This document shows positions 7,850 to 37,428 of a stretch of DNA of 64,000 bases, piece after piece. How positions within the stretch are numbered: position 1 is the stretch's first letter; every line of letters begins with the position of its first letter. The stretch is from the NCBI RefSeq assembly GCF_003984645.1, contig NZ_RWKI01000002.1:248001-312000 (forward strand). Reading direction: 5' to 3'. A model generated the notes under the pieces. It was not told the DNA's origin. It saw nothing but the letters and a program-made list of their open reading frames with translations, and made no database searches. Source of the DNA: Variovorax sp. MHTC-1. Its GTDB lineage: Bacteria; Pseudomonadota; Gammaproteobacteria; Burkholderiales; Burkholderiaceae_C. The position numbers and the translations under genes were made by a program.

Positions 7850-8365
7850 TCAGGGCAGCGCGGGGACCAGCCGCTCCTCGCCCTCGAAGCGGGCCTCCGG
7901 ATGGGCGGTTCGCAACAGCGCCTCGATGGCCTGCACGCGCGCCGGCGGCAGGTCCACCATCAGGAGAATCTGCCCGCGCCCGATTGCGCCTTCGAAGCGC
8001 GCAAGCCGCGGGCTGGGAATGGAGATGCCGATCATGCTGGCCGACCAGGCGCCGATCAGGCCGCCGAGCACGGCCAGGAGCGCAGCCGTTCCCCATTCGG
8101 GCGCTTCCCCGGCGAGCGGGAACAGCAGCGCGGTCACCAGTCCGACCGCGGTGCCGACGCCGCCGCCGATCACCAGGCCGCTGCCGGCGGCATGGACGAC
8201 ATCCGAGGTTTGCCACGCGTTCGCCGCATGCAGCCCGGTCATGTCCATGCCTTCGGCCGCGGCGAAATGAATGTGCGCAGTGTCGACGCGCGCCTGCACG
8301 AGATCGTGCATCGCTCGCCTGGCACTCGCCGGATCCGGCAGCAGCCAGTAAATGCGTCTCTTCAT
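7850..8365 (-). CDS. Small membrane protein with a glycine-rich helical core (DUF1269-like)
   Basis: The 171-residue protein has a short N-terminal soluble domain (KRRIYWLLPDPASARRAMHD, an alpha/beta half), a central glycine-rich membrane stretch (residues about 65-115, with GLVIGGGVGTAVGLV), and a C-terminal segment ending in a basic/acidic tail. The layout resembles DUF1269-type proteins, whose function is unknown. The ATG at 8365 follows AAGGAGAGCACC and is clearly the start. It precedes the oxidase genes on the same strand with a 45-bp gap, so cotranscription is possible. No catalytic motif is visible. Confidence 0.6.
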   Translation of the reverse strand: MKRRIYWLLPDPASARRAMHDLVQARVDTAHIHFAAAEGMDMTGLHAANAWQTSDVVHAAGSGLVIGGGVGTAVGLVTALLFPLAGEAPEWGTAALLAVLGGLIGAWSASMIGISIPSPRLARFEGAIGRGQILLMVDLPPARVQAIEALLRTAHPEARFEGEERLVPALP

Positions 8366-8521
8366 GGTGCTCTCCTTCCTCGTCATACGACGAGACAAAG
8401 AAACCATGGGTGACTTATAGGCCAGGGGGAGGCGGTTAGCAAGCCCACGCCGCCTCTAAAGGCGCTGCCCGCGCGACGCCCACCACCAGCGTCGCGCACG
8501 AGGCAGGCACCGAGCGCGCGG

Positions 8522-9511
8522 TCATCGCAGGCTCCGCGCTCCTTCGACCTGCTCGCGCATCGACCGGCTCCGGCGCCAGGCCGCCGGCGGCGCGCCGTAC
8601 TCGCGCCGGAAGGCGCGGCTGAAGGCGGTGTCGGTCTGGTAGCCCACGTCCTCCGCGATGCTCGCCAGCGGGGCATTGCTGCGGCACAGCAGATTGGCGG
8701 CCAGGAGCATGCGCCACTGCGTCAGGTACTGCATCGGCGAGCTCCCCACCAGCTGCTGGAAGCGCTCGGCCAGCACCGACCTCGAACTGCCGGCCGTGCG
8801 GGCCAGTTCGTCCAGCGTCCAGGCATGGGCCGGGCTCTTGTGCAGCGCATTCAGCGCGGCGCCGACGATCCGGTCGCCCACCCCCGCCAGCCAGCCGGTG
8901 CGCCCCTCGCCCTGCTCGTTCATGTACAGGCGCAGGACTTCGATGAACAGCACCTCGGACAGCTTGGCCAGCACGCCGGCGCCGCCCGGCCGCGGCGAGC
9001 GCGCTTCGGCCAGCGCGTAGCGAACGGAGGCTTCCAGCCAGGTGCCGGCGTTCGATCCGCGCACATTGACGCGCACCAGCGCCGGCAGCCCGGCCAGCAG
9101 CATCCCCGCGAGGCGGGCATCGCAGGCGAGATAGCCGCACACCAGGCGCGTCGTCGCACCGCCGCCGCCATAGGCCAGCTGGCGCGGCCGGCGCGACAGC
9201 ACCTCGTCGAGCCGTCCGCCGGTGGCCGGCGGCAGCCCCGGCTGCGAAGTCATGCGATGGGCATCGCCCTGCGGAAAGATGATGGCGTCGCCCGCGATGA
9301 GATGCACCGGCGGCTCGCCCGCGAGCTCGACATAGCACTCGCCCTCGGTGATCAGGTGGAAGATCACCACGCGCTCGGCGCCGGGCTCCAGGATCGGCGC
9401 CACCGTATCGGCGCGCGGCGACTGGTAGCACCAGGGCGCGGTGAACCTGCCGTTGATGAAGATGGCACCGACCAGCCGCACGACGCGAAGGGTCTCGGAC
9501 AGCGCGTCCAT
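8522..9511 (-). CDS. AraC family regulator with N-terminal cupin domain
   Basis: This 329-residue regulator has an N-terminal cupin-6 type sensing domain (residues about 10-190, with VVIFHLITEGECYVELAG) and a C-terminal double HTH of the AraC class (residues about 220-315, including VLAERFQQLVGSSPMQYL and SIAEDVGYQTDTAFSRAFRR). Its start codon overlaps the stop of the upstream OsmC-family gene (shared TCA at 9511), so the two are translated as a pair. AraC/OsmC pairs are common in soil proteobacteria and probably respond to an electrophile or peroxide. The ligand cannot be read from the sequence. Confidence 0.88.
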   Translation of the reverse strand: MDALSETLRVVRLVGAIFINGRFTAPWCYQSPRADTVAPILEPGAERVVIFHLITEGECYVELAGEPPVHLIAGDAIIFPQGDAHRMTSQPGLPPATGGRLDEVLSRRPRQLAYGGGGATTRLVCGYLACDARLAGMLLAGLPALVRVNVRGSNAGTWLEASVRYALAEARSPRPGGAGVLAKLSEVLFIEVLRLYMNEQGEGRTGWLAGVGDRIVGAALNALHKSPAHAWTLDELARTAGSSRSVLAERFQQLVGSSPMQYLTQWRMLLAANLLCRSNAPLASIAEDVGYQTDTAFSRAFRREYGAPPAAWRRSRSMREQVEGARSLR

Positions 9512-10044
9512 CAGCTGTCACCCACCTCGATGCGCAGTGTCACCGGCACCGCGAGCTGGATCGCCGAGGACATCGGTGAACAGCGATGACTCTCCTCGAC
9601 CAGCGTTCGCAAGCGCTCCGGCGCCACGCCGGGCGCGGAGATCCGCACCCACAGCTGCATGTCCAGCGGCCCGGCGATCACCGGCGTGCCGTCGGCCTGC
9701 GCCACGTCCAGCATGCCGCGCGCATCCGAGTGGCTGTCGACCCGCACCTCGAGTTGCTCCAGTTCGATTCGCTCGGCGGCAGCGCCCATCGCGATGCGGG
9801 TAGCGACGCAGGATGCGAATCCGGCCCGCAGCAGCCAGCCCGGCGTGACCCGATCGCCGCCGCCGCCGAACTCGCCCGGCATGTCGGTCGCTACCTGGGT
9901 GCCGTTCGCGTGGCTTGCGACGACCGTCAAGCCGCCGGTCCAGCGCGCAACGGCCTGCGAGTCTTCGTGAAAGCCGGCCTCGGGCCGCCGTCGCAGCACC
10001 GCCTCCGCCCGCTGCAACGCCGCCGCAATGTGCTCTGCTGCCAT
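9511..10044 (-). CDS. OsmC/Ohr family protein
   Basis: The 177-residue protein matches OsmC-type thiol peroxidases: GGDRVTPGWLLRAGFASCVATRIAMGAA surrounds the second conserved cysteine (within FASC). The start at 10044 is chosen because GGAGG stands six bases upstream; longer in-frame starts exist but lack one. The N-terminal cysteine typical of true Ohr/OsmC enzymes is not obvious, because the first half (HEDSQAVARW) has no Cys. Peroxidase activity is therefore uncertain and a binding or divergent role is possible. It forms an operon with the AraC regulator that follows. Confidence 0.75.
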   Translation of the reverse strand: MAAEHIAAALQRAEAVLRRRPEAGFHEDSQAVARWTGGLTVVASHANGTQVATDMPGEFGGGGDRVTPGWLLRAGFASCVATRIAMGAAAERIELEQLEVRVDSHSDARGMLDVAQADGTPVIAGPLDMQLWVRISAPGVAPERLRTLVEESHRCSPMSSAIQLAVPVTLRIEVGDS

Positions 10045-25097: not shown

Positions 25098-25997
25098 TCA
25101 GTCAAAAGGAAGGTAGTCGGGGGCGACCAGGGAAGCCAGCAGCCTTCCCATCTCGGCCGGGTTGCGCGTGACGTGAATGCCGCACGCTTCCATCACGGCC
25201 AGCTTTTCCTCCGCCGTGCCCTGGCCGTCGGAAACGATGGCGCCCGCGTGGCCCATGCGCCGGTCCGGCGGCGCGGTGGCGCCGGCGATGAAGCCGACCA
25301 CGGGCTTGCGCATGTGCTCCTTGATCCAGCGCGCGCAGGTCTCTTCGGCGTCGCCGCCGATCTCGCCGACCATGATGACGGCGTCGGTGAGCGGGTCGTC
25401 GTTGAACATCCGAAGCACGTCGAGGTAGCGCAGCCCGCCGATCGGATCGCCGCCGATGCCGACCACCGTCGACTGGCCGATGCCGAATGGATGGAGCTGG
25501 TTCACGGCCTCGTAGCCCAGCGCGCCGGAGCGCGACACCACGCCGATGCGGCCGCGCTGGTGGATGTCGCCCGGCATGATGCCGATCTTGATCTCCTCGG
25601 GCGTGATGAGGCCGGGACAGTTGGGGCCGAGCAGCACCGTCCCGCTGCCCTCCATGCGGCGGCGGGTGCGGATCATGTCGCGCACCGGGATGCCTTCGGT
25701 GATGCAGACGACCAGCTCGAGCCCGGCATCGACCGCCTCGTCGATGGCGGCGGCCGCGGAGGCCGGCGGCACGTAGATCACGGAGACGGTCGCGCCGGTC
25801 TCGGCCCTGGCTTCCCTTACCGTGGCGAAGACCGGGATGCCGTCGACGGACGCGCCCGGCTTGTTCGGGTTCACGCCGGCGACGAAGCACTGGCGGCCGT
25901 TGCCGTAGGCGCGGCAGGCCGCGGTGTGGATGCGGCCGGCCCTGCCGGTGATGCCCTGCGTGATCACGCGCGTGTGCTTGTTGACGAGGATCGACAT
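25098..25997 (-). CDS. Succinate-CoA ligase-like alpha subunit (acid-CoA ligase)
   Basis: The 299-residue protein matches SucD throughout: CoA-binding [50 protein letters not shown] and the phospho-histidine loop [17 protein letters not shown]. Residues needed for catalysis are kept. It starts one base after the beta subunit stop. The genome must have a housekeeping sucCD elsewhere, so this pair probably serves another acid (malate, oxalate or formate are candidates from context). The length is near normal (about 290). Confidence 0.82.
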
Positions 25998-25998
25998 C

Positions 25999-27090
25999 TC
26001 AGTGGCCCCGTGCGGCGGCGACCGCCTTCGCGGCCGCGTCCGCCATGTCGTCCGCGCCGATGACGGCCAGGCCCGATGCGGCCAGGATGCTTCTGCCGAG
26101 CGCCTCGTTGAGACCCTTCATGCGCACCACCAGCGGCACGCGCAGGTCGAGCTCGCGCGCGGCATCGACCACGCTCTGCGCAACCAGGTCGCAGCGCATG
26201 ATGCCGCCGAAGACGTTGACGAGGATGGCGCGCAGCTTCCGGTTGCGCAGCATCAGCTTGAAGGCCTCGGTCACCCGTTCGGCCGTCGCGCCGCCGCCCA
26301 CGTCGAGGAAGTTGGCAGGCGATCCGCCGTAGAGCCGGATCGCGTCCATCGTCGCCATCGCGAGGCCGGCGCCGTTCACCAGGGTGCCGATGTCGCCGCC
26401 GAGCGTGACGTAGCAGAGGCCGAACTTCGCGGCCTCGATCTCGACCGCATCCTCCTCCTCGAGGTCGCGCAGCGCGGCGATCTCGGGCTGGCGGTAGAGC
26501 GCATTCGGATCGAAGCCGAACCTGGCGTCGAGCGCGATCACTCGGCCGTCGCCGGTCAGCACCAGCGGGTCGATCTCGGCGCGCGACGCGTCGCATTCGT
26601 CGAATGCGCGGTACAGGTTCTGCATCAGCGTGCGCGCCTGCGGGATCGACTTGCCGGGAATGCCGATGCGGCGTGCGATGCCATCCGCCTGGCCTGCCGT
26701 CAGGCCGGAGACCGGGTCGACGAACACCGTGTGGGCGCCGCCGCCTTCGTCCGAGGCCATCAGGACGACCCGCTGCGTGTCACGGTCTATCGCCATGTGG
26801 ATGGAGAAGGCCTGCCGGATCTCGGTGCGCTCCTCGACCAGCAGCCGCCGCACGCCGAGGTCGGCCAGCAGCGCGCCGGCGTGCTTGCGGACCTCGGGAA
26901 CGGTCCAGGCCTGCCGCACGCCGTCGCCGCGTCGCGCGGCGTGGACCTGCGCCTTGACCATCCATGTCCTGCCGCCCAGTCGCAGCGCGGCCTCCTCGGC
27001 CTCCTGCGGCGAATGGCAGAGAAATCCACGCGGCGACGCCACGCCATAGCGGCGCAATACGTCCTTGCCCTGGTATTCGTGGATGTTCAT
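25999..27090 (-). CDS. Divergent succinate-CoA ligase-like beta subunit
   Basis: The 363-residue protein aligns with SucC along its length: it begins MNIHEYQGKDVLRRYG, and contains AQVHAARRGDGV, EIDPLVLTGDGRVIALDARFG, NGAGLAMATMDAIRLYGGSP, ANFLDVGGGATAERV and NVFGGIMRCDLVA. It is about 25 residues shorter than typical SucC. The nucleotide-binding glycine loop (normally HAGGRGKAGG) reads HAARRGDGV, and NPL is replaced by DPL. The ATP-grasp site is therefore altered, and the specificity or nucleotide use may differ. It is paired with the alpha subunit downstream. Confidence 0.78.
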   Translation of the reverse strand: MNIHEYQGKDVLRRYGVASPRGFLCHSPQEAEEAALRLGGRTWMVKAQVHAARRGDGVRQAWTVPEVRKHAGALLADLGVRRLLVEERTEIRQAFSIHMAIDRDTQRVVLMASDEGGGAHTVFVDPVSGLTAGQADGIARRIGIPGKSIPQARTLMQNLYRAFDECDASRAEIDPLVLTGDGRVIALDARFGFDPNALYRQPEIAALRDLEEEDAVEIEAAKFGLCYVTLGGDIGTLVNGAGLAMATMDAIRLYGGSPANFLDVGGGATAERVTEAFKLMLRNRKLRAILVNVFGGIMRCDLVAQSVVDAARELDLRVPLVVRMKGLNEALGRSILAASGLAVIGADDMADAAAKAVAAARGH

Positions 27091-27432: not shown

Positions 27433-27606
27433 GAGCTTCTCCATGAATTTGAATGCCGCAGCGGATGAATTGGATTTCGCTCGGCATGGTCAAAATGTAG
27501 GATGGCTGATCGATAATTAATAGTGAAAGTATTTTATTGAATGCATTCTCTATGAGTTATGGATCGAGGGTGGCAAATTTCCTTGTCCGTCCCGTCCACG
27601 CCCAGT

Positions 27607-28854
27607 TCAGATCACGCGCTCTTCGCGCAGCATCGCCACGTCGTCCGCGCTGTAGCCGAGCTGGCGCAGCACTTCCTCGGTGTGTTCGCCGAGCAGCGGC
27701 GAACGCGTCACCTCGGTCGGGCTGTCGGACATCTTGATGGGATTGCCCACGGTCAGGTACTTGCCCCGCGTCGGATGGTCGACCTCGACGATGGTGCCGG
27801 TCTGGCGCAGCGACTCGTCGGCGGCGATTTCCTTCATCGACAGGATCGGCCCGCAGGGAATGTCGTACTTGTTGAGGATCTCCATGGCCTCGAACTTGTC
27901 CTTGGTCATGGTCCACTGCTCGATGCGCGCGAAGATCGGCTTCAGGTGCAAGAGGCGGGCGGCCGGCGTGGCGTAGGCCTCGTCGTCGATCCAGCCCTCT
28001 TCGCCGATGACCTTGCACACAGCGGGCCAGACTGCACCCTGCGTGATGAAGTAGATGTAGGCGTTGGGGTCGGTCTCCCAGCCCTTGCAGCGCAGGATCG
28101 AGCCCGGCTGGCCGCCGCCTGAGGCGTTGCCGGCGCGCGGCACCGCGTCGCCGAACTTGCCGTCGGGGTATTGCGGGTACTCGTGCATGGTGCCGGTACG
28201 CTCCAGGCGCTGCTGGTCGCGCATCTTCACGCGGCACAGGTTGAGCACCGCGTCCTGCATCGGCGCCAGCACCTGCTGCCCGCGCCCGGTGCTGTTGCGC
28301 TGGTAGAGCGCGGCGACGATGCCGAGCGCCAGGTGCAGGCCGGTGCCGCTGTCGCCGATCTGCGCGCCGGTGACGACCGGCGGGCCGTCCTCGAAGCCGG
28401 TTGTCGACGCGGCGCCGCCGGCGCACTGCGCGACGTTCTCGTAGACCTTGCAGTGCTCGTATTTGCCGGGGCCGAAGCCCTTGACCGAGGCCACGATCAT
28501 GCGCGGGTTCAAGTCCTGGATGTGGCTCCAGGTGATGCCCATGCGGTCCAGCGCGCCGGGCGCGAAGTTCTCGACCAGCACGTCGCAGGTCTTGATCAGC
28601 GTGTCCAGCACCTGCTTGCCTTTCGGCTTCTTGGTGTCCAGCGTGATCGAGCGCTTGTTGTGGTTCAGCATCGTGAAATAGAGGCTGTCCACGCCGGGAA
28701 TGTCGCGCAGCTGGCCGCGCGTCGCGTCGCCTTCGCCGGCGCGCTCGACCTTGATCACGTCGGCGCCGAACCAGGCCAGCAGCTGGGTGCAGGTGGGGCC
28801 CGACTGCACATGGGTGAAATCGAGAATCCGAACGCCCTCGAGTGCCTTGCTCAT
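27607..28854 (-). CDS. Formyl-CoA:oxalate CoA-transferase-like protein (CaiB/BaiF family), first paralogue
   Basis: The 415-residue class III CoA-transferase has [42 protein letters not shown], the catalytic Asp in [35 protein letters not shown] and a glycine loop [15 protein letters not shown]. All are typical of Frc. It is roughly 60 percent identical by eye to the second paralogue at 29317. Its ATG overlaps the stop of the PAS gene (ATGA). One paralogue may use a different donor, such as acetyl-CoA or succinyl-CoA, as the E. coli Frc/YfdE pair does; this is inference. Confidence 0.85.
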
Positions 28855-29294
28855 CGACTGTCTCCTTCTTGGATCTTGGCCTCGACTTCTACCAGACGAG
28901 CGCGCAGTTTGCGCTCCTCGGCGAAGCGGGCGGTCTCGTCGCGCACCATGGCGACGATGCCCGTGACCTTTCGATCTTCGGAGAACAGCATCGATACCGT
29001 GAAGGCGATCGACAGCGTGTGCCCGTCCTTGTGCAGGGCGGGCACGCGCAGCAGGTCGGCGCCGTACTTGGTGATGCCCGTGTCCATGGTCTTCTGAAAG
29101 CCGTCCCAGTGCCGGCCGCGCTGGCGTTCCGGGATGATCAGATCGAGCGACTTGCCCAGCGCCTCGGCTTCGGTGAAGCCGAAGATGCGCTCGGCGGCCT
29201 GGTTCCAGAGCGTGATCGCCCCTTGCGCATCCGCGACCATGATGGCGTCGCCGGCGCCGGCGACGAGCTGAGCAAGATCCACGTCCGAGTGCAA
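28851..29294 (-). CDS. PAS-domain protein without an output domain
   Basis: The roughly 147-residue protein consists of one PAS domain (residues about 8-125: [34 protein letters not shown]) and a short C-terminal coiled coil. There is no kinase, cyclase or HTH output. PAS domains bind small ligands or cofactors; here it may sense a metabolite for the oxalate block or interact with a partner encoded elsewhere. The start is uncertain: a TTG at 29294 or a GTG at 29282, both behind GGGAGG. It lies between the two frc genes and overlaps the downstream one by four bases. Confidence 0.65.
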
Positions 29295-29316: not shown

Positions 29317-30594
29317 TCAAACTACCTTGGCTTCGCGCAGATTGACGATCTGGTCCTTGGTGTAGCCCAGCTCCGCCAGCACCTCGTCGGTGTGCTCGCC
29401 CAGGAGCGGCGAGGCCGTCACCTCGGGTTTGAGGTCCGAGAACTTGATCGGGCTGCCGATGGTCCAGTAGGTGCCGCGCTCCTTGTGCGGCACTTCGACG
29501 ATGGAGCCGCTCTTGCGCAGCGACTCGTCGCGCAGAAGTTCCTTCATCGACAGCACGGGCGCGCAGGGAATGTCGAACTTGCGGAAGATGTCGACTGCCT
29601 CGAACTTGGTCTTGTCCTTGATGAAGTCCTCGATGGTCGCGAAGATCTGCTCGATGTGCGGCTGACGAGCCTTGGCGGTGGTGTAGTCGGGGTCGGTCTT
29701 CCACTCCGGCTTGCCCAGCGCATCGCAGATCGGCTCCCAGGCGTGGCCCTGTACCGTGAAGTAGATGTAGGCGTTGGGGTCGGTCTGCCAGCCCTTGCAC
29801 TTGAGGATCCAGCCCGGCTGGCCTCCGCCGCCGGCGTTACCACCGCGCGGCGTCACCTTGTCCGCGAACGCTTCCATCTCGTGCGGGTACTGGGGGTACT
29901 CCTCCAGATAGCCCACGCTTTCCAGGCGCTGTTGATCGCGCATTTTCACGCGGCACAGGTTGAGCACGGCGTCCTGCATCGAGCAGGCCACCTTCTGACC
30001 CTTGCCGGTCTTCTCGCGGCCGATGATGGCCGTCAGGATGCCGATAGCCAGGTGCATGCCGGTGTTGGAGTCGCCGAGCGCGGCCGACGAGATGGTGGGC
30101 TGCGAGTTCTCGCCCTTCCACCAGCCGGTGGTCGAGGCGGCGCCGCCGGCGCACTGCGCCACGTTCTCGTAGACCTTCAGGTCCTCGTAGTGGTGGCCTT
30201 CGCTGAAGCCCTTGACCGACGCGTGGATCAGCTTGGGGTTGAGTTCCTGGATGCGTTCCCAGGTGAAGCCCATACGGTCGAGCGCGCCGGGGCCGAAGTT
30301 TTCGACCAGCACGTCGGATTCGCGCACCAGCTGCTCGAGCACTGCCTTGCCTTCCGGCTTCTTGGTGTCCAGCGTGATCGAGCGCTTGTTGCTGTTGAGC
30401 ATTGTGAAGTACAGCGCGTCCACGTTCGGGATGTCGCGCAGCTGGCTGCGCGTGACGTCGCCGGCGCCCGGACGCTCGACTTTGATGACGTCGGCGCCGA
30501 ACCAGGCCAGCATCTGCGTGCAGGCGGGACCGGCCTGGACATGGGTGAAGTCGATGATCTTGATGCCGTTGAGTGGTTTGTTGCTGCTGCTCAT
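29317..30594 (-). CDS. frc: Formyl-CoA:oxalate CoA-transferase, second paralogue
   Basis: The 425-residue class III CoA-transferase is nearest in length and motifs to characterised Frc: [20 protein letters not shown] (catalytic-site Gln), [13 protein letters not shown], catalytic Asp in [15 protein letters not shown], glycine-rich loop [16 protein letters not shown] and [16 protein letters not shown]. It moves CoA from formyl-CoA to oxalate, giving oxalyl-CoA and formate. It directly follows oxc (25-bp gap) with a strong AGGAG site. The linked oxc supports the assignment. Confidence 0.9.
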
Positions 30595-30619: not shown

Positions 30620-32407
30620 TTACTTCTTCTTCGCCGTTGCCGGGTTCAGACTGGTGATGCGGCCGCTTTCGGTGCCGGCGGTCTCGTCGATCACGGCGTT
30701 GATCAGGGTCGGCCGGCCGGAGGCGACGGCCTCGGCCAGGGCCTTCTCCAGCTCGTCCGCGGTGGTGGCGTTGACGCCGACGCCGCCGAAGGCCTCGATG
30801 AGCTTGTCGTAACGCGCGTTCTTGACGAACACGGTCGGCGCCACGTCGGGCGTGCCGCTCGGGTTCACGTCGGTGCCGCGGTAAACGCCGTTGTTGTTGA
30901 AGACGACGATGCAGACCGGCAGGTTGTAGCGGCAGATGGTTTCGACTTCCATGCCGCTGAAGCCGAAGGCGCTGTCGCCCTCGATGGCGATCACAGGCTT
31001 GCCGGTGACCACGGCCGCGGCGACGGCGAAGCCCATGCCGATGCCCATGATCCCCCAGGTGCCGACGTCGAGGCGCTTGCGCGGCTCGTACATGTCGACG
31101 ATGCTGCGCGCGAAATCGAGCGTGTTGGCGCCTTCGTTGACGACGATGGCATCGGGCCGCGCCTTCACCTGGTCGCGGATCACGCTGAGCGCGCTGTGGA
31201 AGTTCATCGGCGAGGGCCGGGCGGCCAGCGTGGCGGCCATCTTCGACAGGTTCTTGTCCTTGCGCTCGGCGATGGCGCCGGTCCAGTCGGCCGGCGGCTT
31301 GGCCCACTTGGCATCGATGCCCGCCACGAGTGCCGCGACGCAGGAGCCGATGTCGCCGATCACCGGCGCGGCGATCGCGACGTTGCTGTCGATCTCGGTC
31401 GGCGCGATGTCGATCTGGATGAACTGCTTGGCGCCCTTCTCCTGCGCCCAGGTCTTGCCCTTGCCGTGCGACAGCAGCCAGTTGAGGCGCGCGCCGACCA
31501 GCATCACGACGTCGGCTTCCTGCAGCACATAGGAACGCGCGGCCGCGGCCGATTGCGCATGGGTGTCGGGCAGCAGGCCCTTGGCCATCGACATCGGCAG
31601 GTAGGGAATGCCGGTCTTCTCGATCAGCGCGCGAATGTCGGCATCGGCCTGCGCATAGGCCGCGCCCTTGCCCAGCAGGATCAGCGGCTTCTTGGCACTC
31701 TTGAGCAGGTCGAGCGCGCGCTTCACCGCGTCGGGCGCCGGGATCTGGCGCGGCGCCGGGTCGATCACCTTGATCAGCGATTTCTTGCCGGCTGCCGCGT
31801 CCATGGTCTGCGCGAACAGCTTGGCCGGCAGGTCGAGATACACGCCGCCCGGGCGGCCCGACACGGCCGAGCGGATCGCCCGGGCAATGCCGACGCCGAT
31901 GTCCTCGGCATGCAGCACGCGGAAGGCCGCCTTGCACAGCGGCTTGGCGATCGCGAGCTGGTCCATCTCCTCGTAATCGCCCTGCTGCAGGTCGACGATC
32001 TCGCGCTCGCTCGAGCCGCTGATCAGGATCATCGGGAAGCAGTTGGTGGTCGCGTTGGCCAGCGCGGTCAGGCCGTTGAGGAAGCCGGGCGCCGATACCG
32101 TCAGGCAGATGCCGGGCTTTTGCGTCAGGAAGCCGGCGGCCGCGGCGGCGTTGCCGGCGTGCTGCTCGTGGCGAAACGAGATGACGCGCATGCCTTCGGC
32201 CTGCGCCATGCGCGTGAGGTCGGTGATCGGGATGCCGGGAAGACCGAAAATGGTGTCGATGTCGTTCAGCTTCAGCGCGTCGATCACGAGGTGGAAGCCA
32301 TCGGTCGTTTCGCGGTCCGGCGCGTCATCGGTCATGTTCTTGAGGGCACGCGCGACCAGGTCGTCGGCTGTGGTGGCTCCCTGCTGGGCTGTGCTAACTG
32401 AAGACAT
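30620..32407 (-). CDS. oxc: Oxalyl-CoA decarboxylase
   Basis: This 595-residue thiamine diphosphate enzyme converts oxalyl-CoA to formyl-CoA and CO2. The N-terminal pyrimidine-binding domain ([34 protein letters not shown]) contains the activating Glu region. The ThDP motif near residue 475 reads [20 protein letters not shown] followed by FNNNGVYRG. The length (about 570-600) is normal. The start at 32407 follows AAGGAGAGAC. It is divergent from a Crp/Fnr regulator and upstream of both frc genes. The formyl-CoA made is recycled by Frc. Confidence 0.93.
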
Positions 32408-32481
32408 GTCTCTCCTTCTGCTTCGTGGTGAATGGCCGGGGGCCGAGCCACGACTATGATTCGGGCCCAGGCTTTCAGCTG

Positions 32482-32495
32482 TTGACCTCGGTCAA
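32482..32495. promoter_or_regulatory. FNR-type operator in the oxc/crp divergent region
   Basis: TTGACCTCGGTCAA is a perfect palindrome whose half-site TTGAC and four-base spacer (TTGAC-N4-GTCAA) match the Crp/Fnr family pattern. It lies 75 bp upstream of the oxc ATG and 68 bp upstream of the Crp/Fnr ATG. The palindrome and its right flank (ACTTTCCGGA) recur, with one flank change and a different spacer, upstream of tctC at 37316-37329. Confidence 0.65.
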
Positions 32496-32562
32496 CTTTC
32501 CGGAAAACGGGCGCTCTCCCGGTGAACCGGCGGTTGTTGCGAAATCGAGCAAGACGGGAACC

Positions 32563-33171
32563 ATGACGTTGTTGGAAAACCACCCGGAGAAAAACATCAT
32601 CCGCGCCCAGCTCCGGCAGAACATCCTTCTCAAGGACCTGAGCGAGAGCGATCGCGCCGAACTGGAAACCCATCTCGCCGTCGTGGACGGCAACAAGGGC
32701 GACTTTTTGCTGCACCAGGGCGTGCGCGAGATGGCGCAGTACTTCATCCTCGACGGCATCCTCAAGCGGGTGGTGAGCAACCCGGAGGGCAAGGAAATGA
32801 TCCTGCGCTTCGCCGACGAGAACGACATGGAGACCAGCTACGCCGCGCTGCGGCTCGGCACGCCCACGCCGTACGGCATCGTCTGCGTGACCAAGGCGCG
32901 CGTGGCCAGCCTGCCGCTGAAGGAATGGATCGCGTTCCTGAACCGCCATCCGGAAAGCAAGGAGCTGTTCGAGTTCAGCGTCATGCGCGGGATGAGCGAG
33001 ATCATGGCGCACACCATCACGCTGCACCTGCTGGACGCCCCCGGTCGCGTGCACCGCTTCATGCGCAAGCATCCGGAACTAGTGGATCGCATTCCGAGCA
33101 AGGAACTGGCCTCCTATCTCAACCTCTCCGCGGAAACCCTGAGCCGGCTGAAGAAGCGCGGAAAAATCTAG
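32563..33171 (+). CDS. Crp/Fnr family regulator, likely controller of the oxalate block
   Basis: The 202-residue protein has an N-terminal cyclic-nucleotide-like sensing domain (GDFLLHQGVREMAQYFILDG) and a C-terminal winged helix, IPSKELASYLNLSAETLSRL. The recognition helix keeps the E-x-x-S-R pattern of FNR, which reads TTGA half-sites. It lacks the N-terminal cysteine cluster of true FNR. An earlier in-frame ATG at 32425 would overlap the operator; the ATG at 32563 begins the conserved domain. It is divergent from oxc, with the palindrome between them. Effector unknown (perhaps oxalyl-CoA, formyl-CoA or oxalate). Confidence 0.85.
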   Translation: MTLLENHPEKNIIRAQLRQNILLKDLSESDRAELETHLAVVDGNKGDFLLHQGVREMAQYFILDGILKRVVSNPEGKEMILRFADENDMETSYAALRLGTPTPYGIVCVTKARVASLPLKEWIAFLNRHPESKELFEFSVMRGMSEIMAHTITLHLLDAPGRVHRFMRKHPELVDRIPSKELASYLNLSAETLSRLKKRGKI

Positions 33172-34004
33172 GTCTGCTTGGAGGAGGCGAACAGCCGCGA
33201 GCTGGTCATCAGCCTCAGCTGGTTGTCGACGCTCTGCACGCCGGCCACCGCCGCCGCAACGTCCTCGGTCTGGCTTCGCTCTTCCGCGTCGAGCACGATC
33301 CCGCGCAGCGCGACCTGACCTTGCCTGGCGTTGATCGTGATGTTGATGTCGCGCGTCGCCGGATGCTCCTTCAGCGCCGCGCGAACGCGCGCCTCCAGTG
33401 CCATGTCGGCGAGCATGGCGCGCGATTCGGGCGTCTCGGCGAATTCCGGGCGGCTCGCCAGCAGGCTGATCTGCTCCACGCAGCTCTCGACCGACAAGCG
33501 ATCGGTGTTGAGCACCAGGTCGTAGAGCACCGGGTCGCCCCAGGTGACGCCGAACTGGTCGTTCATGCGCGACGCGTGCGCCTGGTCGCTGCGGCGCAGC
33601 TCGGCTTCCGCGAATTCGACATCGTCGGTGCCCAGATGGCCCATCAGCCACTCGACCCGCTTCTTGAACGAGCGCGTGACGCGCACGCACACCACGTGCG
33701 GCACCGGACGCAGCAGGCAGGTGGCGCCCCAGCCGCGCAGCACGACGTTGCCGCGGTCGGCCAGCGCGAACAGTTCTTCCGCTGTGTAGAGGGCGACGCT
33801 GCGCTTGTCGGTTGTCAAGCGCTCTACGAGCCCGGCCTTGCCGTCGCGCAGACGGCCGATCAGGCTGGTGGACACCTGCGCGCGGTCGGCCACGCGCTCG
33901 ATGGCCTCGTGGCGCATGACGGCCAGCCCGAGCGACTCGGCGAGCCGCAGCGACACGTCCTTGGCGAGGGAACCCATTTCCTGGGTCATTGCGATGACGG
34001 GCAT
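33168..34004 (-). CDS. Cytidylate-kinase-like domain fused to a BON domain
   Basis: The 278-residue protein has an N-terminal domain resembling the cytidylate kinase-like family 2 (ITQEMGS-type start with SLAKDVSLRLAESLGLAVMR, RVTRSFKKRVEWLM, EAELRRSDQAHASRMNDQF) and a C-terminal BON domain (residues about 200-270, AALKEHPATRDINITI and RQGQVALRGIVLDAEERSQ). BON domains normally bind lipids in the envelope, yet no signal peptide is seen, so the protein is probably cytosolic. It follows tctA by 16 bp with a GAGGAG site, so it belongs to the transporter operon. Its TAG stop shares CTAG with the convergent regulator. Substrate unknown. Confidence 0.7.
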   Translation of the reverse strand: MPVIAMTQEMGSLAKDVSLRLAESLGLAVMRHEAIERVADRAQVSTSLIGRLRDGKAGLVERLTTDKRSVALYTAEELFALADRGNVVLRGWGATCLLRPVPHVVCVRVTRSFKKRVEWLMGHLGTDDVEFAEAELRRSDQAHASRMNDQFGVTWGDPVLYDLVLNTDRLSVESCVEQISLLASRPEFAETPESRAMLADMALEARVRAALKEHPATRDINITINARQGQVALRGIVLDAEERSQTEDVAAAVAGVQSVDNQLRLMTSSRLFASSKQT

Positions 34005-34020
34005 GGTGTCGGCTCCTCGT

Positions 34021-35550
34021 TCAGTCCACCGGCCGCTCGACGGCGAACTCGTCAGGCTTTTTTGGCTTGATCATTGCCATCACCTTCGAGATCACCGGCC
34101 AGAACAGCAGCACCAGGGCCAGCGTGGTGATGCTGCCCACCAGCGGATTCGCCCACATGATCATGACGTCGCCTTGCGAGACCAGCATGGCCTGGCGGAA
34201 CGAGTCTTCGGCCTTGTCGCCGAGCACCAGCGCCAGCACCAGCGGCGCCAGCGGGAAGTCGAGCTTCTTGAAGAGGTAGCCCACCACGCCGAAGCCGAGC
34301 ATGAACCAGATGTCGAGCATCGCGTTGTGCACGGTGTAGGCGCCGATCGCACAGATCACGATGATCACCGGCGCGATGATCGAGAACGGAATGCGCAGGA
34401 TCGAGGCAAAGAGCGGCACGGTGCTCAGCACGACGATGAGGCCGACGATGTTGCCCAGGTACATGCTGGCGATCAGGCCCCAGACGAAGTCCTTCTGCTC
34501 GACGAAGAGCAGCGGCCCCGGCTGCAGACCCCAGATCAGCAGGCCGCCCAGCAGCACAGCAGCGGTCGGCGAGCCGGGGATGCCCAGCGCCAGCATCGGC
34601 AGCAGCGCGCTGGTGCCGGCGGCGTGCGCGGCGGTCTCGGGCGCCACGACGCCTTCCATTTCGCCGGTGCCGAACTTGGTGCCGTTCTTCGACATCTTCT
34701 TGGCCAGGCCGTAGCTCATGAACGAAGCCGGCGTCGCGCCGCCCGGCGTGATGCCCATCCAGATGCCGATCAGCGAGCTGCGCAGCGAGGTCACCCAGTA
34801 TTGCGGCAGCTGCTTCCAGGTCTGCAGCACCACCTTGGGATCGATCTTCGCGCTCTTGCCGGAGAACTTGAGGCCCTCCTCCATCGACAGCAGGATCTCG
34901 CCGATGCCGAACAGGCCGATGACCGCGATCAGGAAGTCGAAGCCGCGCATCAGCTCGGGCTGCCCGAAGGTGAGGCGCAGCTGGCCGGTCACGGTGTCCA
35001 TGCCGACGCTGGCCAGCGCGAAGCCGAGCGCCATCGACCCCAGGATCTTGAAGGGCGAGCCCTTGCCCATGCCGACGAAGCTGCAGAAGGTCAGCAGGTA
35101 CACCGCGAAGAATTCGGGCGAGCCGAACTTGAGCGCGAACTTGGCCACCAGCGGCGCCAGGAAGGTGATCATCACCACGGCGAGGAAGGCGCCCACGAAG
35201 GACGAGGTGAACGCCGTGGTCAGCGCCGCGCCGGCCTTGCCCTGCTGGGCCATCGGATAGCCGTCGAAGGTGGTGGCCACCGACCACGGCTCGCCCGGGA
35301 TGTTGAACAGCACGGAGGTGATGGCCCCGCCGAACAAGGCGCCCCAGTAGATGCACGACAGCATGATGATGGCCGAGGTCGGCGACATCGTGAACGTGAG
35401 GGGCAGCAGGATGGCCACCCCGTTCGCCCCGCCCAGGCCCGGCAGCACGCCGATCAGCACGCCGAGGATGATGCCGACGAACATCAGGCCGATGTTCATC
35501 GGCGTCAGGATCACTGCAAAGCCCTGCATCAGGGCACTGATTTCTTCCAT
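34021..35550 (-). CDS. tctA: Tripartite tricarboxylate transporter, large membrane subunit
   Basis: The 509-residue membrane protein has about twelve helices and the TctA signature GVLPGLGGANGVAILLPLTF at the N-terminus, repeated as IWMGITPGGATPASFMSYG in the second half, plus LGIPGSPTAAVLLGGLLIWG. It forms the channel for a solute delivered by the periplasmic TctC. The family usually carries di- and tricarboxylates; context in an oxalate block suggests oxalate or a relative as the solute. Its neighbours tctB and tctC are in the normal order. Confidence 0.92.
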   Translation of the reverse strand: MEEISALMQGFAVILTPMNIGLMFVGIILGVLIGVLPGLGGANGVAILLPLTFTMSPTSAIIMLSCIYWGALFGGAITSVLFNIPGEPWSVATTFDGYPMAQQGKAGAALTTAFTSSFVGAFLAVVMITFLAPLVAKFALKFGSPEFFAVYLLTFCSFVGMGKGSPFKILGSMALGFALASVGMDTVTGQLRLTFGQPELMRGFDFLIAVIGLFGIGEILLSMEEGLKFSGKSAKIDPKVVLQTWKQLPQYWVTSLRSSLIGIWMGITPGGATPASFMSYGLAKKMSKNGTKFGTGEMEGVVAPETAAHAAGTSALLPMLALGIPGSPTAAVLLGGLLIWGLQPGPLLFVEQKDFVWGLIASMYLGNIVGLIVVLSTVPLFASILRIPFSIIAPVIIVICAIGAYTVHNAMLDIWFMLGFGVVGYLFKKLDFPLAPLVLALVLGDKAEDSFRQAMLVSQGDVMIMWANPLVGSITTLALVLLFWPVISKVMAMIKPKKPDEFAVERPVD

Positions 35551-35571
35551 TTCGCGTTCGCTCCGTGAGAT

Positions 35572-36093
35572 TCAGTAGCCGAGAAAGCGAAGGGGGTCGA
35601 GCGAACCTTTGAAAAGGGGCACCTTGAACCACACTTCGAACATGAAGAAGAAGAGCGTGTTGACGGCCAGCGCGATGAGCACGCTCTTGACCCACGAGTA
35701 CTTGCCAAGAACGATCATGAACAGCGCGATGTAGAGCGCCGATGCGATGTACAGCCCCAGGAAGGAAACGGCCAGCACGTACACCGTCGCCGGAATCAGC
35801 ACGGACATCACGCGCTTCAATTGCTCCGAATCGACGAAAACCTCGGTCTTCTTGTGCTTTCCGAGCAGGGCTTGATACAGGATGCCGGCGCCCGAGATGG
35901 TGATGATCAGGCCGATGTAGAAGGGAAAGTAACCCGCCCCGGGGCCGTCGGTGGTCCAGCCGGCGCCCAGCCTGCGGCTTTCGTAGATCACTACCAGGCC
36001 GATGATCAACAGGACCGCCGCAACCACCGCCTCCACCAGATTGGTGGCAACGCCCACGCGCGCCGGGCTGTCGGAATTCTCTTCGTGCTCCAT
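35572..36093 (-). CDS. tctB: Tripartite tricarboxylate transporter, small membrane subunit
   Basis: The 173-residue protein has four transmembrane helices (starting LVEAVVAAVLLIIGLVVIYE) and the family loop TDGPGAGYFPFYIGLIITIS. It pairs with TctA in the inner membrane. Start and stop fit tightly between tctC and tctA (98-bp and 21-bp gaps). The poorly conserved sequence is normal for this subunit; placement gives most of the support. Confidence 0.85.
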   Translation of the reverse strand: MEHEENSDSPARVGVATNLVEAVVAAVLLIIGLVVIYESRRLGAGWTTDGPGAGYFPFYIGLIITISGAGILYQALLGKHKKTEVFVDSEQLKRVMSVLIPATVYVLAVSFLGLYIASALYIALFMIVLGKYSWVKSVLIALAVNTLFFFMFEVWFKVPLFKGSLDPLRFLGY

Positions 36094-36191
36094 GGAGCCC
36101 CCATCGTGTATTTGTGATGAAAACGGAATGCGGCGCCCCCGCCATGCACCGCTCGGGGTGATGGCTGCTGCGTGCGCCGCTCGGCGCGCTG

Positions 36192-37223
36192 TTACTTGCC
36201 GCTTGCGGCCATGAAGCCGGCTTCAGTCATCAGGGTGCGATGGGTAGCCTCTGCGTCTGCGAGCCACTTCTTGAACGCGTCGCCGGTCATGAAGGTCGAG
36301 TTGAAGGCACCCTTCTCCATGTATTCCTTCCACTCGGGCGTGGCCGCGACCTTGGTCAGCAGGTCCACATAGAACGCGAGCTGGTCGGGCGTCACGCCCG
36401 CGGGCATGAAGATGCCGCGCAGCATGGTGTAGTTGGTCGGCACGCCGGCTTCCTTGCAGGTCGGGATGTCGTTCCACGACTGCGTGTCGGTGACCTTGGC
36501 CTTGAAGGGCATGCGCTCGTCGTCGAACACGCACAGGGCGCGCAGCTTGCCGGCGCGCCACTGGGCGACCGCCTCGATGGGGTTGTTCACGGTGGAATGC
36601 ACGTGGCCGCCCACCAGCTGCACCGCGACTTCGCCGCCGCCCTTGAAGGGCACGTAGATGAACTTCGTGCCGGTGGCCTTCTCGAGAGCCACCGTGATGA
36701 TCTGGTCTTCCTGCTTCGAGCCGGTGCCGGCCATCTTGAACTTGCTCGGCCCCGCCGCTTTCGCCGCGGCGATGTACTCGGCGGCACTCTTGTAGGGCTG
36801 CTCGGCGTTCGTCCACAGCACGAACTGGTCGAGCGCGAGCATGGCGACCGGCGTCATGTCCTTCCAGTTGAAGGGCACGCCGGTGGCCATCGGCGTCGTG
36901 AACAGGTTCGACAGCGAGATCACGATCTTGTGCGGATCGCCCTTCGCTTCCTTGACCGCAAGGAAGCCCTCGGCGCCGGCGCCGCCCGACTTGTTGACGA
37001 CGATGAGCGGCTCCTTCATCAGCTTGTGCTTGATGATGATGCCCTGCATCAGTCGCGCCATCTGGTCGGCGCCCCCGCCGGTGCCGGCAGGGATGACGAA
37101 TTCCACCGGCTTGGTGGGCTCCCACGCGGCGAAGGCAGGTGTCGTGACCGCCAGCGCCATGACGGCCGCGGTGGACAGGCTGGCTGTGCAGGCCTGGGTA
37201 CGCGAAATGAGATTCCGAATCAT
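36192..37223 (-). CDS. tctC: Tripartite tricarboxylate transporter substrate-binding protein
   Basis: The 343-residue periplasmic receptor has a signal peptide (residues about 1-32, ending VTTPAFA), the TctC-family mature start WEPTKPVEFVIPAGTGGGAD, and internal motifs GTGSKQEDQIITVALEKATG and GGHVHSTVNNPIEAV. It captures an anionic solute for TctAB. The start follows AGGAGACAAC. It is first in the operon, and the FNR-type palindrome lies 93 bp upstream, so the transporter probably shares control with oxc. Confidence 0.9.
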   Translation of the reverse strand: MIRNLISRTQACTASLSTAAVMALAVTTPAFAAWEPTKPVEFVIPAGTGGGADQMARLMQGIIIKHKLMKEPLIVVNKSGGAGAEGFLAVKEAKGDPHKIVISLSNLFTTPMATGVPFNWKDMTPVAMLALDQFVLWTNAEQPYKSAAEYIAAAKAAGPSKFKMAGTGSKQEDQIITVALEKATGTKFIYVPFKGGGEVAVQLVGGHVHSTVNNPIEAVAQWRAGKLRALCVFDDERMPFKAKVTDTQSWNDIPTCKEAGVPTNYTMLRGIFMPAGVTPDQLAFYVDLLTKVAATPEWKEYMEKGAFNSTFMTGDAFKKWLADAEATHRTLMTEAGFMAASGK

Positions 37224-37315
37224 GTTGTCTCCTATGTGGGCTGTGCTCTTCTTGCATGGAATCTCAGTCGAAATCCCAGTGAAGCGAATGCTGCGCGCCG
37301 CCGCCCAAAGCCGGC

Positions 37316-37329
37316 TTGACCATGGTCAA
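37316..37329. promoter_or_regulatory. FNR-type operator upstream of tctC
   Basis: TTGACCATGGTCAA is a perfect palindrome with TTGAC-N4-GTCAA spacing. The right flank (CTTTTCGGA) matches the flank of the oxc/crp site (CTTTCCGGA) at all but one base. The distance to the tctC ATG is about 93 bp. The twin sites are the main evidence for one regulon. Confidence 0.65.
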
Positions 37330-37392: not shown

Positions 37393-37428
37393 AAGGGTTT
37401 ACCCTTTAATCGGGTAAACCCTATAAGA
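37393..37428 (+). promoter_or_regulatory. Palindromic operator overlapping a sigma-70-like promoter
   Basis: AGGGTTTACCC (37393-37403) and GGGTAAACCCT (37411-37421) form a perfect 11-bp inverted repeat. The -35-like TTTACC (37397-37402) lies in the left arm and a -10-like TATAAG (37421-37426) begins at the end of the right arm, with an 18-base spacer. It lies 38 bp upstream of the small gene at 37466. A repressor binding the palindrome would block the promoter. Confidence 0.55.

Follow-up and report, generated by a model that had tools for sequence, protein, structure and literature searches.

Regulators of the FNR/Anr/DNR family are characterised by an E-x-x-S-R recognition helix, a TTGA-type palindrome with an N4 spacer and a site near position -41.5, and the FNR-type half-site has the consensus TTGAT. 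Tripartite tricarboxylate transporters are a second described system of relevance, and their known members include Bug proteins, AdpC, MatC and others. For oxalate degradation, surveys of 2023 and 2026 regard OxlT as the pathway's transporter (PMC10192776, PMC12927642), one of the two stating that OxlT had been identified in only two aerobic strains, and PMC9476978 also names OxlT as the transporter. In their main texts, these three papers and PMC3886118 do not contain the word 'regulator'. Among the open literature matches listed, no title reports this regulator or TctABC in oxalate uptake, which does not show absence from print, and no oxalate-specific tripartite tricarboxylate transporter appears among the matches listed. 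Here we describe a locus in a 64,000-nucleotide stretch of Variovorax sp. MHTC-1 DNA (hereafter the window), where the oxalyl-coenzyme A (CoA) decarboxylase gene oxc heads a run with two formyl-CoA transferase (frc) genes, a Crp/Fnr-family regulator gene (crp) diverges from it, and a tctCBA transporter cluster lies close by. By computation we identify a candidate operator shared by these genes, establish that it is conserved and associated with the regulator, and describe how it is spaced relative to a -10-like hexamer and how transporter genes replace one another behind it. With a probability of roughly 0.85, we read the locus as an oxalate regulon in which the regulator, bound at this operator, would act as a class II activator of the oxc run and of tctCBA, with TctABC importing oxalate.

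A candidate operator and its conservation

The initial annotation had described two perfect palindromes, one between oxc and crp and one upstream of tctC. Both were found in place (TTGACCTCGGTCAA and TTGACCATGGTCAA), and their right flanks indeed agree save for one base, each site being followed by CTTT(C/T)CGGA. Taken within the window only, the statistical test is weak, with TTGACNNNNGTCAA occurring at 3 places when one mismatch is allowed (0.72 expected) and 7/100 shuffles reaching 3. The whole genome (5.88 Mb) contains 4 exact places for TTGACNNNNGTCAA and 1 for a control pattern read backwards. Only two of the 4 places fit TTGACCNNGGTCAA; both are in the window, 4.8 kb apart, and a random pair would lie so close with a probability of about 0.0016. 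The remaining two exact places fall within a cox11-like gene and at a position with no evident oxalate gene alongside among the open reading frames scanned. With one mismatch allowed genome-wide there are 82 places against 62 for the control, so that weak matches carry little weight.

The motif scan of relatives that the initial annotation had proposed was carried out on 80 named loci that carry the regulator (64-99% identity). Variovorax is named in the title of 38 of them, and the others are either other Betaproteobacteria by title or unclassified metagenome-assembled genomes. The window is from a Variovorax-type genome, and its closest named locus is that of V. paradoxus ISL-79 (L002), whose regulator is 99% identical. 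Upstream segments of 200 bp (crp), 250 bp (tctC) and 400 bp (oxlT-type genes) were searched at the named loci and of 300 bp in the order-wide sample described below; gene starts were extrapolated from tblastn, and the distances may therefore be wrong by a few codons. With no more than one mismatch allowed, the site was kept before crp at 79/79 usable loci, 71 of them exact (L029 was left out as a contig-edge artefact), and before tctC at 58/59 (37 exact, 21 with one mismatch). The sole tctC miss was L081, where tct stands apart from crp. Dinucleotide shuffles of the crp and tctC upstream DNA gave means of 0.67/80 and 0.41/59, respectively, and the sequence around the sites diverges while the sites stay. 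Too little upstream DNA was available for the oxlT-type gene of L050, for tctC of L048, L080, L174 and L203, and for oxc of L200. Within the genus, 26 genomes including the window's own were compared. Each of the 15 that carry the regulator has a perfect TTGACCNNGGTCAA before crp, at a distance of 43-72 bp, and 4/11 of those without it carry a perfect TTGACCNNGGTCAA anywhere in the genome. A second perfect site lies 4.8-5.0 kb away, as in the window, in 11 of the genomes compared.

The search was extended to 300 genomes of the order, in which the regulator was called at E <= 1e-40 and Oxc above the TIGR03254 cut-off; 53 further regulator regions and 11 more oxc regions were analysed. The regulator occurs in 54 of these genomes and Oxc in 51, with 46 having both (p = 5e-40, phylogeny not corrected). 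Before oxc, the site was present in 41/44 segments from genomes with the regulator, covering 16/17 genera, and in 0/5 from genomes without it (Fisher 3e-5). Before crp it was present in 43/53, covering 17/22 genera. When 11,264 palindromes of the form X-N(0-10)-X' were enumerated, TTGAC-N4-GTCAA ranked first before oxc, crp and tctC, being exact in 13/17, 13/22 and 7/14 genera, respectively. The site also follows oxc through changes of gene order. With crp and oxc in the same direction (L145, L147, L148), it is found in the intervening DNA, ahead of oxc rather than of crp; with the two genes convergent (L184, L185, L187), it again precedes oxc; and where oxc is on another contig than crp, an exact site was found for 3/5 genes whose upstream DNA was available (L195-L197), L198 and L199 having two mismatches.

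In 7 of the 8 order-wide regulator genomes that have no canonical Oxc, the oxc place is taken by a 2-hydroxyacyl-CoA-lyase-like, thiamine-diphosphate-dependent enzyme (L135, L136, L137, L144 at 7997-9718 on the minus strand, L146, L150, L155), which also occurs at the named loci L041 and L081. The enzyme is 24-27% identical to Oxc and has a C-terminal QTMY, and five examples reach no equivalog cut-off among their best 25 NCBIfam matches each. The operator precedes 7/7 of the order-wide genes, 5 times exactly. A wider proposal, which we put forward tentatively and hold to be possible rather than probable, is that the operator traces an oxalate regulon throughout the Burkholderiales, in which TctABC would be the binding-protein-dependent importer of aerobic oxalotrophs, the lyase-like enzyme would either decarboxylate oxalyl-CoA, as a second enzyme type for this reaction, or cleave the same CoA esters as a lyase, and the regulator would sense an oxalate metabolite.

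The initial annotation had proposed one regulon covering uptake, CoA activation and decarboxylation, with a half-site before the transcript of a CoA ligase. The computation supports the joining of oxc-frc with tctABC in one local regulon: the operator accompanies the regulator in different genera and gene orders, and it stands before some oxc and tct genes on other contigs. The CoA-ligase transcript did not hold up as a third member. The half match (CATGGTCAA, 27485-27493) is present, and read as a full site it has 4 mismatches, as does the best site in the 516-bp gap; we rejected it as an operator. In the comparable gap of relatives, a site with at most one mismatch was found in 0/29 and TTGACCATG in 0/29. 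Because the half-site is missing from the relatives compared and has no second half, the ligase was left out of the regulon. The beta subunit of this ligase (window 25098-27090) is 96% identical in L002, 87% in L035 and 52-67% in the other 27 relatives compared, whose oxc is nonetheless about 90% identical or more; this subunit may have a different origin.

Two further kinds of site were noted at the named loci and rated weak: an additional exact TTGAC-N4-GTCAA near a histone-deacetylase-like gene at three Variovorax loci (L030:16057, L031:15479, L036:17206), and a site with one mismatch that lies 18 bp ahead of a NuoE/NuoF-like gene, maybe of a formate dehydrogenase (L056:4321).

The regulator and the geometry of its presumed promoters

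The regulator of the window has the recognition helix E191-T-L-S194-R195. The initial annotation had pointed out the E-x-x-S-R residues, and E191, S194 and R195 proved invariant in 36/36 aligned regulators, which together with the TTGA-type N4 palindrome matches FNR-type DNA recognition, the binding being predicted. A PF00027 match (37.8 bits, cut-off 27.5) places the cyclic-nucleotide-binding-type beta barrel within the Crp/Fnr superfamily. No Pfam helix-turn-helix model reached E 0.001 in the protein; a C-terminal helix-turn-helix is seen in helices 179-185 and 190-198 of the predicted structure, and an alignment to 3dn7 covers residues 26-199 (E 5e-12). The structural model (pLDDT 81.4, pTM 0.68) served for family assignment and not for the effector pocket, and its Foldseek matches include GlxR, MtbCRP and DNR (best E 2e-7, TM-score about 0.5). 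The protein thus shares with CRP the PF00027 domain and CRP-family structural matches, but differs in its FNR-type recognition helix and in missing the cyclic AMP (cAMP) contacts: the cAMP-contacting residues E72, R82 and S83 of CRP fall on S92, T102 and P103 in a phmmer alignment. With the FNR/Anr/DNR-type regulators it shares the E-x-x-S-R helix, the TTGA-type N4 palindrome and a site near -41.5; it differs from them in having few perfect sites per genome rather than a global regulon, and a TTGAC(C) half-site instead of TTGAT. FNR proper has four essential cysteines for its [4Fe-4S] cluster. No cysteine is invariant among the 36 orthologues, the window protein having one, so that an FNR-type iron-sulphur sensor is not expected. 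The earlier label 'FNR-type' therefore fits the recognition helix, while the conserved cysteines of FNR and the cAMP contacts of CRP were not seen. Because no cysteine is invariant and the cAMP-contacting residues are replaced, the effector may well be a metabolite of the pathway. One genome at the family level (G389:C155) carries two copies of the regulator, separated by about 5 kb, with 77% and 45% identity to that of the window.

Class II activators bind a site centred near -41.5. We examined the distance from the operator to -10-like sequences in 58 non-redundant oxc promoters and found a mean of 3.19/6 TATAAT matches at offset 23, compared with 0.7-1.7 outside offsets 20-26. In 44 non-redundant tctC promoters, NANNNT was present in 43% at each of offsets 22 and 23. 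With a -10-like hexamer 22-23 nt downstream, the centre of the site would lie near -41.5 to -42.5, which suggests the class II activator position; the offset profile is clear for oxc and weaker for tctC. In the direction of oxc and of tctC, the conserved flank pointed out in the initial annotation is A-rich DNA lying immediately upstream of the site.

These features are consistent with the following mechanism. The 202-residue protein would be a pathway-specific regulator of oxalate use, whose dimer would bind TTGACC-N2-GGTCAA (core TTGAC-N4-GTCAA) through the E-x-x-S-R helix. Bound at about -41.5, it would activate both the oxc-frc-PAS-frc run and tctCBA in the class II manner, and the A/T-rich flank just upstream would be the likely contact for the alpha subunit of RNA polymerase. 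Oxalate would be imported by TctABC, its presumed carrier; Frc would load it onto CoA and Oxc would decarboxylate the product. In other genomes the same operator would drive an OxlT-type antiporter, which replaces TctABC or accompanies it. The effector would come from the pathway itself (oxalate, oxalyl-CoA or formyl-CoA), not be O2 or cAMP.

Transporter genes and competing explanations

TctA, TctB and TctC are encoded together in the window (PF01970, PF07331 and PF03401), which makes the system a tripartite tricarboxylate transporter. It has the same three subunits as the known members, and among PDB sequences TctC matches 4x9t and 25hk best; the system differs from them in being placed with oxalate breakdown by its regulon context. 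Order-wide, linked tctC genes have the site in 18/34 cases (11/14 genera) in genomes with the regulator, indicating that the tctC branch is less constant. Clusters away from crp were compared as well: tct clusters of this kind have the site in 4/6 genomes with the regulator (L201, L202, L204, L206) and in 0/15 without it (p = 0.0025), although the contigs of L204 and L206 are short and their clusters could in fact adjoin crp. A TctA match was found in 16 regulator-free genomes, of which 15 were fetched (G123 was left out).

OxlT is a single-protein exchanger of the major facilitator superfamily (MFS), unrelated to the three-part, binding-protein-dependent TctABC, but it is found behind the same operator. 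Within the fetched stretch, tct alone is present at 60 named loci and an oxlT-type MFS gene alone at 12; one locus has both (L058) and 7 have neither, several of the latter being cut by contig ends. The oxlT-type genes of the named loci carry the site within 400 bp in 14/15 cases (6 exact, 8 with one mismatch, the miss being L074), and 13 of these 14 are without tctABC nearby; order-wide the figure is 3/11. All 8 MFS proteins scanned from the named loci exceed the TIGR04259 (oxalate/formate antiporter) cut-off of 335 bits, with 371-659 bits, and several also pass that of the lactate transporter model NF049980 with lower scores. Four congeners (G308, G310, G315, G319) have a further perfect site 12.3-12.7 kb from the crp site and about 360-540 bp upstream of an oxlT-type gene, and all four proteins are above the TIGR04259 cut-off (664-672 bits). 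An OxlT homologue is also encoded on another contig of the window's own genome (G000:C50:18626-19834, L134; 589.7 bits, cut-off 335), and it carries no operator. This gene adjoins a response-regulator gene and lies about 5 kb from a glycerate kinase gene. The proposal of the initial annotation that TctABC serves in place of OxlT is thus borne out in part. The same operator stands before oxlT-type genes that mostly have no tctABC nearby; on the other hand, the homologue elsewhere in the genome and the four congeners with an operator before oxlT indicate that TctABC would be either an alternative or an additional carrier, able to stand beside OxlT or in its place. That TctABC is an oxalate carrier is supported by this context.

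Several observations weigh against the regulon as proposed. Nearly half of the named loci (38/80) are from Variovorax, and counts drawn from them are not independent. In the 300-genome sample, 8 regulator genomes have no canonical Oxc and 5 Oxc genomes have no regulator. Order-wide, 10/53 regulator genes have no site within 300 bp, so that autoregulation is not general, and 16/34 linked tctC and 8/11 oxlT-type genes also have none; the palindrome enumeration does not put TTGAC-N4-GTCAA first before oxlT. The -10 signal of tctC is weak, with a mean of about 2/6 TATAAT matches at offsets 22 and 23. In one more regulator-free genome (L194), besides the 15 above, oxc stands beside a tctC gene that has a one-mismatch site, giving 1/16 in total for tctC genes in genomes without the regulator. 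Finally, TctC proteins bind varied acids. According to PMC8102459, 2/8 TctC proteins of V. paradoxus TBEA6 shifted with thiodipropionate or gluconate, and one was needed for growth on thiodipropionate.

This last point bears on the possibility of a genuine regulon in which TctABC transports some other small carboxylate metabolised along with oxalate, such as glyoxylate, glycolate, tartronate, malonate or formate. The varied TctC ligands (PMC8102459), the OxlT homologue in the same genome, the operator before oxlT-type genes in four congeners and TctA proteins 71-80% identical in 16 regulator-free genomes would all fit such a substrate. However, tctABC and oxlT-type genes are rarely found together at the named loci, and 14/15 oxlT-type genes there carry the operator; we consider a different carboxylate unlikely, if a serious contender. 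It is improbable, in our judgement, that the regulator is a repressor released by an inducer. A single site between divergent genes could serve autorepression, but the distance of 22-23 nt to a -10-like hexamer, maintained ahead of oxc across many genera and less clearly ahead of tctC, fits a class II position by the general rule for such sites.

Binding of the palindromes by another Crp/Fnr paralogue of the Fnr, Anr or Dnr type, answering oxygen or nitric oxide and leaving the neighbouring gene incidental, appears more doubtful still. The motif does resemble FNR and DNR sites, and the E-x-x-S-R residues are common to such paralogues. Yet where the regulator is missing the site is absent before 5/5 oxc and 15/16 tctC genes, in genomes where other paralogues are expected, though they were not counted; perfect sites are moreover scarce genome-wide, and every regulator-bearing congener has one close to crp. 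Palindromes arising by chance, or a functionless remnant shared through vertical descent, can be set aside almost entirely: the shuffle test in the window is weak and one-mismatch sites barely exceed their control, but the sites are kept across genera through changes of gene order, and their presence or absence goes with that of the regulator. An oxalate regulon under the neighbouring Crp/Fnr protein, with TctABC as oxalate importer, is the reading we prefer on these sequence comparisons.

Locus layout and significance

The oxc-frc-PAS-frc genes form a close-packed minus-strand run ending with the second frc (Table 1). Between tctC and the next plus-strand gene lies an inverted repeat, GGGTTTACCC-N7-GGGTAAACCC (window 37395-37421). 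GGGTTTACCC also adjoins the oxlT operator in L241-L244, and given its presence at both, a second regulator may act on both transporters.

Table 1. Coordinates of genes, predicted operators and presumed promoter elements in the window
Feature	Position	Strand	Evidence or context
Second frc paralogue	27607..28854	-	4-bp overlap with PAS gene; TIGR03253, 721.6 bits
Small PAS-domain protein gene	28851..29294	-	22 bp after frc; PF00989, 54.7 bits
frc, formyl-CoA transferase	29317..30594	-	25 bp after oxc; TIGR03253, 714.2 bits, cut-off 504.2
oxc, oxalyl-CoA decarboxylase	30620..32407	-	TIGR03254, 1002.8 bits, cut-off 739.4
-10-like hexamer CATAGT, presumed oxc promoter	32453..32458	-	23 nt after operator 1
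Operator 1 (predicted), TTGACCTCGGTCAA	32482..32495		between oxc (74 bp, minus) and crp (67 bp, plus)
crp, Crp/Fnr-family regulator, 202 residues	32563..33171	+	divergent from oxc; PF00027
Cytidylate-kinase-like and BON protein gene	33168..34004	-	after tctA; PF13189, PF04972
tctA, large membrane subunit	34021..35550	-	PF01970
tctB, small membrane subunit	35572..36093	-	PF07331
tctC, periplasmic binding protein of tripartite tricarboxylate transporter	36192..37223	-	PF03401
-10-like hexamer CAGCAT, presumed tctC promoter	37288..37293	-	22 nt after operator 2
Operator 2 (predicted), TTGACCATGGTCAA	37316..37329		92 bp upstream of tctC

The oxalate-carbonate pathway in soils is fed by oxalate degradation, which also matters for oxalate in the gut. 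For Variovorax and related bacteria, the comparisons presented here point to a dedicated oxalate control circuit and, probably, to an oxalate importer not recognised before. With a regulator that has a clear operator, genes of the pathway could be found by their control sites, the question of import in aerobic oxalotrophs becomes testable by a binding assay, and parts for an oxalate sensor would be at hand.

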